DNA of 64,000 nucleotides. It comes from Flavivirga aquatica. Its GTDB lineage: Bacteria > Bacteroidota > Bacteroidia > Flavobacteriales > Flavobacteriaceae. The notes under the pieces were generated by a model, which searched no databases, was not told the origin of the DNA, and saw only the letters and a program-made list of their open reading frames with translations. Made by a program: the position numbers and the translations under genes. The stretch's first letter is position 1; each line of letters begins with the position of its first letter. The stretch covers positions 372,001-436,000 of the forward strand of contig NZ_MDJD01000007.1 in assembly GCF_001747085.1 (NCBI RefSeq), written 5' to 3'. Below, piece after piece: positions 43,423-53,250 of this stretch.

Positions 43423-43995
43423 TTATTGGTTAAGTTGTTCTACAATTAATATTCCGTTTTGGGTAACATTTTTTACTTTGACAACAGATCCTGACTTTAA
43501 ATCTGTTTTTGAGTCTGTAAGAGCTTCTAATTCTCTTAGCGCACCTTGAATTCTTATATGTGCTTTACCTATAGACGATCGATTAGCTCCAATGGTAAGG
43601 TAAACTTCACCAACGCCTCCTATAGCATTTTTAAAATTTAAGGTACCGCTATGGTTAAGTTTTCTCATATAAAAAAACATGCCTGCCATTATAATCATCA
43701 TAACTAGTCCACAAATCATTGAAATAATTATGGTTACTATTTGTGAGAAACCTGCATCGATACAACCAACACCACTCCAGCCAAATATGGTAAAGAAGCC
43801 TACAAGGTTTTTAAAGGTTATAAATTGAAAACCAATACCAGTATCTGAATCTATTTCGGTATCTGTATCCAATTCATCTGTATCACCACCTACAAGCGTT
43901 AGAATCATGGTAACAATAAAAATTAAAGAGCCTAATAGAGCTATACTCCAATATATTTTTGGAAATAGCTCTAAGCTAGAAAACCATTCTGTCAT
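43423..43995 (-). CDS. NfeD-like membrane protein with OB-fold
   Basis: 190 residues. Two or three membrane segments (about 12-38, 60-80, 85-110) are followed by a C-terminal OB-fold (NAIGGVGEVYLTIGANRSSIGKAHIRIQG to VVKVKNVTQNGILIVEQL). It resembles YuaF, the NfeD-like partner of flotillins. It is translated just before the flotillin gene. A possible promoter (TTG, 20 bases, TACATTTA) lies upstream. Confidence 0.82.
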   Translation of the reverse strand: MTEWFSSLELFPKIYWSIALLGSLIFIVTMILTLVGGDTDELDTDTEIDSDTGIGFQFITFKNLVGFFTIFGWSGVGCIDAGFSQIVTIIISMICGLVMMIIMAGMFFYMRKLNHSGTLNFKNAIGGVGEVYLTIGANRSSIGKAHIRIQGALRELEALTDSKTDLKSGSVVKVKNVTQNGILIVEQLNQ

Positions 43996-50672: not shown

Positions 50673-51848
50673 CTACACTACAAAAGTAGCGAGTCCTTTT
50701 AAAACTTCCGATATTTCTTTTTCAGTATTAAAAGCATGTAAACAAAATCTTAATCGCTCCTGTCCTTTTGGTACTGTGGGTGATAAAATAGGTTTAACAT
50801 CGAATCTTTTTTCTTGAAGCCTTTTTGCGATTACTTTTACTTTATCGTTTCCTGAAATAACACAACAATGAATGGCAGAATGACTTTCTATAAAAATAGA
50901 TTCTAACTTGTTTTTAATAATTTCTGCTTTAAAAAACTGAATGTTTTTATGCAATTCTTGAATAGAATTATTAAATTCCGCTACATTACTTATAATAAGT
51001 AATTCATTGTATACTACATATATTGTAGCAAGGCTATGCGGAGGCAATGCAGTGGTATAAATAAAACTACGCGAAAAATTCACTAAGTATTGCTTTAAAC
51101 TTTCGTTACTTAATATGGCTGCTCCGTGACAGCCCATGGCTTTACCAAATGTTATAATTCGTGCGAAAACATCTTTTTCTAAACCTAGATCTGCAATAAG
51201 TCCTGCGCCTTGTTTACCCAAAACACCTATAGCATGAGCTTCGTCTACAATTAAAAGGCTATTATATTTTTTACTTATTTCTGAAAATTTTACTAGGTCT
51301 GGGGAATCGCCATCCATAGAAAATACAGATTCTGTGATAATATAAATATTTTTATGTGTTTCTGAAACGTGATTAGAATGACGTAATATTAAATGTTCTA
51401 ATGCTTCTAGATTATTATGTTTAAACTTATATCCTTTTGCATGACTCATTGAAATGCCATCTCTAATGGAGGCATGAATGTATTCGTCGTATAAAATAAT
51501 ATCGCCTCGTTGCGGAACTGAAGAGAAAAAGCCAACATTGGCATCGTAACCTGAGTTAAAAACTAATGCCGATTCACTTTTATGAAAATTACACAATACT
51601 GTTTCTACACTATTGTATAACTTATGATTTCCTGATAATAACCTAGAGCCTGTTGCTCCATTTTGAGGCATATTATTTTCTATTAAAAACTCATGTGCTT
51701 TATTAAAAACAACTTCGTTTTTAGAAAACCCTAAATAATCGTTTGAAGAAAAATCTATTAAATTATGTTGTACACCAAGTTTCCGTAAGGCATTATTTGC
51801 TTTACGTTCTTCTAATTTTTGTTGTAGTATTTTTGGAAGGCTTTTCAT
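50673..51848 (-). CDS. bioF: 8-amino-7-oxononanoate synthase
   Basis: 391 residues, a PLP-dependent alpha-oxoamine synthase. It has IDFSSNDYLGFS, GATGSRLLSGNH, the DEAHAIG motif (202-208) and the PLP lysine K236 (IITFGKAMGCHG). It joins pimeloyl-ACP (or CoA) with alanine. It is the first gene of the biotin run on the minus strand, divergent from the DUF2975 operon. A -7 element sits only 7 bases from its ATG, so its transcript may lack a leader. Confidence 0.94.
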   Translation of the reverse strand: MKSLPKILQQKLEERKANNALRKLGVQHNLIDFSSNDYLGFSKNEVVFNKAHEFLIENNMPQNGATGSRLLSGNHKLYNSVETVLCNFHKSESALVFNSGYDANVGFFSSVPQRGDIILYDEYIHASIRDGISMSHAKGYKFKHNNLEALEHLILRHSNHVSETHKNIYIITESVFSMDGDSPDLVKFSEISKKYNSLLIVDEAHAIGVLGKQGAGLIADLGLEKDVFARIITFGKAMGCHGAAILSNESLKQYLVNFSRSFIYTTALPPHSLATIYVVYNELLIISNVAEFNNSIQELHKNIQFFKAEIIKNKLESIFIESHSAIHCCVISGNDKVKVIAKRLQEKRFDVKPILSPTVPKGQERLRFCLHAFNTEKEISEVLKGLATFVV

Positions 51849-51889: not shown

Positions 51890-51932
51890 TAATTATAGGT
51901 ATAAGTTAAAAATCATCTTTTTTTATAAAAAA

Positions 51933-51949
51933 TTATTGTTTATCAATAA
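51933..51949 (+). promoter_or_regulatory. Operator 1 of the DUF2975/Xre operon
   Basis: TTATTGTTTATCAATAA is a 17-bp palindrome with perfect 6-bp arms (TTATTG and CAATAA). It covers the -33 TTG of the promoter. It shares its pattern with operator 2, 31 bp away centre to centre. Confidence 0.65.
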
Positions 51950-51963
51950 TTTTTATATATTTG
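51936..51963 (+). promoter_or_regulatory. Promoter of the DUF2975/Xre operon
   Basis: TTG (51936-51938), 17 bases, TATATTTG (51956-51963): an ideal Bacteroidota promoter with the spacing reported for Flavobacterium. It lies 23 bases before the first start codon. Confidence 0.8.
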
Positions 51964-51980
51964 TTATCGTTAAACAATAA
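51964..51980 (+). promoter_or_regulatory. Operator 2 of the DUF2975/Xre operon
   Basis: TTATCGTTAAACAATAA is a palindrome with one mismatch, starting at the base after the -7 element, so it covers the transcription start. A 12-bp perfect inverted repeat (51931-51942 and 51971-51982) links it to operator 1. Confidence 0.65.
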
Positions 51981-51986
51981 TTAATC

Positions 51987-52514
51987 ATGAAGAAATTAGC
52001 GTATATATTATCAAAAATATTCTTTTATTGCTTTTCAACTGTATGTCTTTTTATAATGGTATTTTCAATACTATCTTATTTTGCATATAAATTTGACATG
52101 CAAATTCCGTTTGTTGAAGTTTTAGAAAGCCACTCGAAAGTCAATGTGCCTTTATTAGAGCTACGTATAAATGTTCCTTTTAGTTATTCTATCATTATTA
52201 TGTGGTCTGCCATGTTATATTATACTATTTATTTTTATGCACTTAAAAACTTTTTTAAGGTGTTTATTAAAAAAAACATGTTTGAAACTAAATCGTTAAA
52301 ACGGTTACGTTTTTTCTTGAAACTAAATCTTATTCCTATAATTTATATTATAATCTTTACAGTATCATTTCTTTTACGAGGAGATACTTTTAGTCCTCAA
52401 GATGATTATTTTATTGTATTCGCGCATTTAGTAGTTGCTTTTTTAATATACCTCTACTTAGATATTTTAAAAAAAGGAAAACATGTACAAGAAGAAAATG
52501 ACTTAACCATATAA
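51987..52514 (+). CDS. DUF2975 membrane protein, first copy
   Basis: 175 residues with four membrane segments (about 10-32, 70-92, 108-130, 138-160). The sequence fits DUF2975, small membrane proteins encoded with Xre-type regulators. A cytoplasmic Lys-rich end finishes in EENDLTI. A second family member follows 2 bases later and ends in the same seven residues. The operon has a strong promoter flanked by two operators. What these proteins do is not known. Confidence 0.72.
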   Translation: MKKLAYILSKIFFYCFSTVCLFIMVFSILSYFAYKFDMQIPFVEVLESHSKVNVPLLELRINVPFSYSIIIMWSAMLYYTIYFYALKNFFKVFIKKNMFETKSLKRLRFFLKLNLIPIIYIIIFTVSFLLRGDTFSPQDDYFIVFAHLVVAFLIYLYLDILKKGKHVQEENDLTI

Positions 52515-52516
52515 CG

Positions 52517-53041
52517 ATGAAAGACAATACAAAAATTTTAACCATTATTACTTGGATCATTTTATTATCCTCTATTTCGGTATTACTTAATGATATTCGT
52601 GAATTTGATTTTAATCAATTTACAGAATTTCAAAATTGGGCTAAAACAGCAAATAAAAATGAATCTTGGTTAACGTCGAAAAATGCTATTAAGTGGAGTT
52701 ATTATGCTATAAGTGCTGGTTTGTTTTTCTGGAGAGGCTACCTTATTTATGGGTTTTCTTATTTTTTATCAATCCTTAAGGAAATTGAAAACAGAAACTA
52801 CTTTAGTGACAAAATTATTAAAGGTTTTAAAAAGATTGGATATATTTTTATTTGGTACACTATTAGTGTTTTAATTTTAAGGTTTCTTTTAGCAGGAATT
52901 AACGGATCTACTTTCAACTTTTTTAACGAACTCAAAGCTGAGTTTACTTTTTTAATTCCAGCAGGTTTAGGATTTTATATTTTAGCTGAAATATTTAAAC
53001 GTGCTAAGGAAACTAAAGAAGAAAACGACTTAACCATATAA
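52517..53041 (+). CDS. DUF2975 membrane protein, second copy
   Basis: 174 residues with four membrane segments; the second half (FFNELKAEFTFLIPAGLGFYILAEIFKRAKE) matches the last pair of DUF2975. It lies between the first copy and the Xre regulator, with 2 bases to each. Both copies end in EENDLTI, encoded by nearly identical DNA that runs on through the stop codon to the next ATG (52492-52519 and 53019-53046). The rest of the two proteins is clearly diverged, so this end is conserved by selection or by recent conversion. Confidence 0.7.
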   Translation: MKDNTKILTIITWIILLSSISVLLNDIREFDFNQFTEFQNWAKTANKNESWLTSKNAIKWSYYAISAGLFFWRGYLIYGFSYFLSILKEIENRNYFSDKIIKGFKKIGYIFIWYTISVLILRFLLAGINGSTFNFFNELKAEFTFLIPAGLGFYILAEIFKRAKETKEENDLTI

Positions 53042-53043
53042 CG

Positions 53044-53250
53044 ATGCCCATAATTGTAAATTTAGATATCATACTTGCTAAGCGAAAGATAAAAAGTAAG
53101 GATTTGGCTGAAACTATTGGTATTACTACCGCTAACTTATCGATATTAAAATCTGGTAAAGCTAAAGCGGTTAGGTTTTCAACTTTAGAGGCTATTTGTA
53201 AAGCTTTGGATTGCCAACCTGCTGATATCTTAGAGTATGTTGAAGATTAA
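53044..53250 (+). CDS. Small Xre-family transcription regulator (YozG-like)
   Basis: 68 residues, a single helix-turn-helix domain (MPIIVNLDIILAKRKIKSKDLAETIG, TTANLSILKSGKAKAVRFSTLEAICKAL, CQPADILEY). It is encoded 2 bases after the second DUF2975 gene. Regulators of this short type bind as dimers and control their own operon. The two palindromes around the operon promoter are its most likely targets. Whether it represses or activates is not evident, but the site positions favour repression. Confidence 0.85.
   Translation: MPIIVNLDIILAKRKIKSKDLAETIGITTANLSILKSGKAKAVRFSTLEAICKALDCQPADILEYVED

Follow-up and report, generated by a model that had tools for sequence, protein, structure and literature searches.

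Two copies of a palindromic site are built into the promoter of an operon that codes for two DUF2975 membrane proteins and a 68-residue Xre regulator in Flavivirga aquatica. The sites share the core TTATYG-N5-CRATAA, which recurs in front of xre genes of Flavobacteriaceae and other bacteria, largely in register with the promoter. Judging from sequence comparison, Xre very probably binds these sites and represses its own operon. The DUF2975 proteins also share a near-invariant C-terminal tail, which we tentatively consider as a possible contact with the regulator. Positions given without a locus or contig name refer to the window, i.e., the whole 64,000-nucleotide stretch of F. aquatica DNA that was analysed.

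Organisation of the operon

The operon includes three tightly spaced plus strand genes in the order DUF2975, DUF2975, xre. The first (51987-52514) codes for a 175-residue membrane protein ending in VQEENDLTI (Pfam PF11188, 35.1 bits at a cut-off of 27) and the second (52517-53041) for a 174-residue membrane protein ending in TKEENDLTI (50.6 bits). The xre gene (53044-53250) starts 2 bases past the stop codon of the second DUF2975 gene, and its product, the likely operator binder, matches HTH_26 (PF13443) with 89.5 bits at a cut-off of 22. The YoaS and YozG proteins of Bacillus subtilis presumably represent DUF2975 and Xre, respectively, and YoaS-like is taken here to mean DUF2975; the B. subtilis control genome contains a DUF2975 match.

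In the AlphaFold2 model (mean pLDDT 85.2, pTM 0.76), the second DUF2975 protein consists of four long helices and a short one. Comparison of this fold with the PDB gave no matches at E ≤0.001, and the only hit of the DUF2975 sequence profile, a weak one at E 0.0034, was to a designed binder. PADLOC found no match for the two DUF2975 proteins and only weak helix-turn-helix matches for Xre.

An aminotransferase-family gene recognised by domain search, which we call bioF-like, is located at 50673-51848 and transcribed in the direction opposite to the operon. It is present, whole or in part, in the DNA fetched for 46 of the 171 Xre loci, so the neighbourhood is often retained.

Two probable operators within the promoter

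The promoter carries the -33 element TTG at 51936-51938, 17 bp upstream of the -7 box. The -7 box TATATTTG (51956-51963) belongs to the TAnnTTTG type. In Flavobacterium psychrophilum this box is placed at -12 to -5, according to the available text of PMC9723704; therefore the start of transcription is predicted near 51968, with the ATG at +20.

Candidate operator 1, TTATTGTTTATCAATAA (51933-51949, about -35 to -19), covers the -33 TTG. Candidate operator 2, TTATCGTTAAACAATAA (51964-51980, about -4 to +13), begins at the nucleotide following TATATTTG, directly 3′ of the -7 box, and lies over the predicted start. These are exactly the positions given in an earlier note on this DNA, and the distance of 31 bp it reported between the centres (51941 and 51972) was reproduced as well. 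Operator 1 has perfect 11-bp arms; in operator 2 the arms (TTATCG / CAATAA) differ from perfect symmetry at a single position. The 12-bp inverted repeat (51931-51942 and 51971-51982) proposed to tie the two sites together does exist and is perfect, but it is a by-product of the half-sites common to both operators. The palindromes proposed as exact operators are real, but the operator is better defined by the core TTATYG-N5-CRATAA, and many orthologous operons have only one perfect site.

We consider it highly probable that Xre acts at the two palindromes as an autorepressor. The 68-residue protein would bind TTATYG-N5-CRATAA twice, once over the -33 element and once against the -7 box and the predicted start, and would thereby repress its own operon. 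In these positions either operator would exclude RNA polymerase or prevent it from leaving the start. The cargo under such control would be a membrane protein, in most cases DUF2975.

Chance level and conservation

Four matches to the core (one mismatch or less) occur in the 64-kb window; the expected number is 2.07, and four are also reached in 15 of 100 shuffles. A lone loose palindrome therefore means little in such A+T-rich DNA, and the weight of the observation lies in pairing, promoter register and conservation. The same applies to the complete F. aquatica genome (4.64 Mb): there are six perfect cores against five matches to the reversed control pattern, so the single sites are not above chance, while the pairs are. 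Two pairs account for four of the six: the first precedes the operon described here and the second the sole other Xre match of the genome (contig C54). The two remaining cores have different spacer letters (ATTTT and AGAAT). One of these (C7:188876) is located between convergent genes and the other (C7:62953-62969, i.e., L182 1454-1470) about 140 bp in front of the probable start of a trigger-factor-like gene, named from its translation; both may be due to chance.

Of the 249 Flavobacteriaceae genomes sampled, 113 have a match to Xre, and the gene pair is also found in other phyla. A perfect core precedes Xre at 79 of the 91 loci from the family (including the two from F. aquatica) and at 62 of the 80 named loci. 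Thirty rounds of dinucleotide shuffling of this DNA gave on average 0.10 loci for the family set and 0.13 for the named set, and no site was found in the DNA 3′ of Xre, of which 62 and 189 kb were searched. As two named loci repeat family loci, there are 169 distinct loci, 139 of them with a perfect core in the fetched DNA. For the other 30, some of whose operons extend past the fetched flank, the best match within 1.5 kb 5′ of Xre has one (15 loci), two (7) or three (8) mismatches. In four of the 12 family misses (L008, L013, L018, and L019) a perfect site is located just outside the flank first fetched.

The core was also recognised outside Bacteroidota. Among the Bacillota loci, assigned by record title, 11 of 14 have it with one mismatch or less within 700 bp 5′ of Xre, and 7 of 14 have two cores (two mismatches or less) at a distance of 21 bp. 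The core is perfect in a Desulfobacterium MAG, and it occurs with one mismatch in an alphaproteobacterial MAG. Whole genomes of 14 non-Bacteroidota species contained a perfect core somewhere in ten cases, in several of them no more commonly than the control pattern, so that single sites in these genomes carry weight only by their position. Lack of conservation in orthologous operons had been named beforehand as the result that would speak against the proposal. The palindromes turned out to be conserved, registered to the promoter and to accompany Xre.

Spacing of the probable operators follows the promoter

Operator 1 combined with a -7 box was recorded in 120 loci; in these, operator 2 begins immediately past the TAnnTTTG box (0 bp) in 66 of 69 instances and 1 bp past it in the other three. 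The distance between operators is less constant. Adjacent perfect cores of the family set are separated by 31 bp (31 pairs), 32 bp (10) or 33 bp (2), and those of the named set by 31 bp (11), 32 bp (6), 33 bp (1) or 75-77 bp (6). Since operator 2 abuts the -7 box, the change between 31, 32, and 33 bp tracks the promoter spacer. Prevotellaceae and relatives (L124, L136, L141, L144, L146, and L171) have their cores 75-77 bp apart instead of 31-33 bp.

By its position in these loci, operator 2 is anchored to the promoter and not to a helical phase relative to operator 1. A fixed spacing of 31 bp, expected earlier to be conserved, does not hold: the distance is 31, 32 or 33 bp in relatives and 21 or 75-77 bp in other clades, and we rejected it as a conserved feature. 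The associated suggestion that both sites face the same side of the helix is roughly true of the F. aquatica locus itself, but it is not what has been conserved.

Some relatives have a weaker third site 21 bp 5′ of operator 1 (three mismatches or less in 38% of the 120 loci, the mean over all offsets being 2.4%); no convincing one was noticed in the window when the sequence was read by eye. This third site would suit a different mode of action, in which the palindromes are operators but bound Xre activates the promoter, as LytTR regulators do by way of promoter repeats in their operons, or toggles it, and a membrane protein combined with a regulator in a single operon is indeed the LytTR layout in the available text of PMC6193735. 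However, the conserved sites overlap the -33 element and the predicted +1 and are not confined to the region 5′ of the promoter. Activators seldom bind over +1, and we regard activation as unlikely.

Cargo of the Xre operons

The operator accompanies Xre across phyla and also occurs with membrane cargo other than DUF2975. The paralogous operon of F. aquatica codes for two Rce1-like (CAAX-type) proteases, DUF2975 and Xre, and its counterpart in another genome (G247) likewise has two extra membrane genes before DUF2975. In two operons of Bacteroidales MAGs (L161 516-2494 and L174 493-2497), an Xre relative and the operator are combined with NfeD-like and Band 7 proteins. The name NfeD-like is ours, as these proteins have no Pfam match, and the flotillin-like Band 7 proteins score under the NCBIfam cut-off. 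In view of this variety, the earlier description of a complete module goes too far: cargo differs between operons.

Two more loci (L095 51-1298 on the minus strand; L094 1724-2995) combine the operator core with a downstream gene whose product, of 415 or 423 residues, contains hydrophobic stretches; no Pfam match was found for the 415-residue protein. These proteins are a further type of cargo. F. aquatica itself has an NfeD-like gene inside the window (43426-43995, minus strand), where there is no perfect operator core.

The paralogous operon (L240, contig C54, about 272-278 kb) is located between two copies of an IS-like element (L240 1867-3375 and 5993-7672), which are almost identical, run in the same direction and code for a 502-residue protein that we call transposase-like. 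The arrangement resembles a composite transposon. Xre relatives were also found in 193 plasmid records (64 of them from Klebsiella) and 18 phage records.

Plasmid records and the IS-flanked paralogue would be in line with a toxin-antitoxin pair in which the membrane protein is the toxin, Xre the antitoxin and autorepression a part of the system, and so would a small Xre encoded by the last gene of a probably autoregulated operon. This is distinctly unlikely in our opinion, since cargo varies, the DUF2975 genes are often doubled within the operon and, in the available text of Makarova et al. (2009; PMC2701414), pairs of Xre with YoaS-like proteins are kept off the toxin-antitoxin list.

Xre as the probable binder

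A stricter pattern, TTATYGTTWWWCRATAA, was found in 22 of 22 genomes with Xre and in none of 18 without an Xre match, all of them hand-chosen from the same family. As the core is located 5′ of Xre across loci and TTATYGTTWWWCRATAA is present only in the Xre-bearing genomes among those chosen, Xre is very probably the protein that binds these sites. Four of the 22 genomes (G034, G158, G013, and G061) contain an extra TTATYGTTWWWCRATAA site distant from Xre. These sites, like the unpaired cores of F. aquatica, may belong to a wider regulon or occur by chance.

The same comparison bears on two other explanations. A different regulator could bind the palindromes, with Xre acting on another target, but this is very unlikely given the 22 to 0 distribution of TTATYGTTWWWCRATAA in the chosen genomes and the fact that the operator tracks Xre through phyla and cargo changes. 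That the palindromes work as hairpins of the leader RNA is hardly credible: operator 2 would be at the 5′ end of the transcript, but operator 1, which lies 5′ of the predicted start and so is not transcribed from this promoter, is conserved as well, the core arms are A+T-rich and just 6 bp long, and TTATYGTTWWWCRATAA is absent from all 18 chosen genomes without Xre.

The C-terminal tail of DUF2975 proteins

Besides the operator, the Xre loci share a near-invariant C-terminus of the DUF2975 proteins, E-N-(D/E)-L-T-(I/V). The last gene before Xre was identified in 166 of 171 loci. The products of 160 of them end in [LYF][TLYI][IVL], four have near variants of this ending, and the remaining two belong to Band 7. 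Counting from the C-terminus, L occupies position -3 in 155 of the 166 proteins, T position -2 in 154, E position -6 in 149 and N position -5 in 132; without the two repeated loci (n = 164) the counts are 153, 152, 147, and 130. In an alignment of 101 DUF2975 proteins the mean column identity is 23%, and five of the seven columns with the lowest entropy fall in the final six residues. All four Thr, all six Leu and all three Ile codons are used in the tail, and this variation of synonymous codons points to selection at the protein level. Conservation as an effect of DNA or of a ribosome binding site was rejected, as the codons vary and the tail is also present on the first DUF2975 protein of two-gene operons.

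The tail is located at the end of the last helix of the AlphaFold2 model and has lower confidence there. The charges flanking the hydrophobic stretches of the first DUF2975 protein suggest that both its ends are cytosolic; a simple window gave no clear signal for the second. The DUF2975 tail is probably cytosolic.

Such a tail might feed back on Xre, capturing or releasing the regulator upon a disturbance of the membrane. We hold the docking of Xre by the tail to be possible, at slightly under even chances, and the tail could also have another partner or be a protease signal. The idea can be extended to a one-operon form of membrane signalling in which a portable tail captures Xre: in Bacteroidota as well as Bacillota, Xre, tail and operator would stay recognisable, and the membrane component would be swapped, possibly even for a pair of NfeD-like and flotillin-type proteins in Bacteroidales. 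This too we put forward tentatively, as a little less than an even prospect. If the tail does dock Xre, it would give membrane proteins a simple means of governing a repressor.

To compare the tail with Xre adjacency, 30 PF11188 loci were read by eye. Where Xre is encoded directly 3′, 18 of 19 proteins end in the tail, one of them as DLYI; L212 lacks it. None of the seven proteins from loci without Xre ends in LT(I/V), L194 ending in HTV and L185 being damaged. Three loci (L184, L189, and L191) have the tail or a near form although a different gene comes next, and L196 is outside these classes. As the loci without Xre may represent another subfamily, the tally is only supporting.

A possible covariation of tail and regulator was also considered. 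Y, F or I at position -2 of the tail pairs with G42 and E/D46 of Xre in seven sequences. However, in the single tree computed, of nine labelled and 70 random other rows, these seven cluster together (support 92/69), so one event suffices for the change at -2 and at 42/46, and the covariation was rejected as independent evidence. In L063 and L180 the tail is altered at -2 and Xre is ordinary.

The NfeD-like proteins of L161 and L174 end in SYTI and SLII, respectively, which is reminiscent of the DUF2975 tail, although there are two cases only. The ends of 26 NfeD-like comparison loci (reading frames assigned by rule, some perhaps wrongly) are unlike SYTI or SLII.

Comparison with known systems

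DUF2975 genes or yozG are mentioned in published work, cited here from the available text. In a Streptomyces cluster a DUF2975 gene is listed next to a gene of the helix-turn-helix type (PMC7827011), yozG is among the lower-expressed genes of a B. subtilis array, with the direction taken from the printed ratio (PMC4326333), and, according to a figure legend, the genes of an mcr-8.6 genomic island include one for DUF2975 (PMC12708576). A search of the open literature for DUF2975, YozG, yoaS, and HTH_26 found no description of an operator, tail, signal or partner contact. The operator offers a direct handle on this membrane family, as a reporter with a defined site would let its signal be screened for.

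The gene pair itself is of a kind already described. Makarova et al. (2009) reported 32 instances of Xre paired with a YoaS-like membrane protein, annotated as a likely permease (PMC2701414, available text). In F. aquatica both DUF2975 proteins exceed the Pfam cut-off and the small Xre is directly adjacent, so the pair is of the same kind; the operator, its promoter register, the changing cargo and the tail are described only here, as far as the available text of that paper goes. Thus, while the pair was listed in 2009, the operator and the tail are apparently new.

The LytTR systems HdrRM and BrsRM (PMC6193735, available text) likewise combine a regulator and a transmembrane protein in one operon, which is autoregulated via conserved repeats. 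However, their regulator is an activator of the LytTR family and its direct repeats are located just 5′ of -35, whereas here the palindromes lie on the -33 element and the predicted +1, and Xre has Pfam matches to HTH_26, HTH_3, and HTH_19 only, none of which is a LytTR family. As to inhibition of the regulator by the membrane protein, another mark of LytTR systems, the conserved DUF2975 tail is no more than suggestive.

Closest in its manner of working is the group of Aca autorepressors of anti-CRISPR operons (PMC9410906, available text), for which repression has been demonstrated. There, as here, a small helix-turn-helix protein is encoded in the operon it regulates or would regulate, and a conserved inverted repeat is located inside the core promoter, as in an Aca-type operon. 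The cargo is an anti-CRISPR protein in the Aca operons and a membrane protein in ours, so that we see the likeness as an analogy and not as membership. Overall, the autoregulated operon would be of a known kind, while its operator is apparently unusually broad in distribution and previously unreported.
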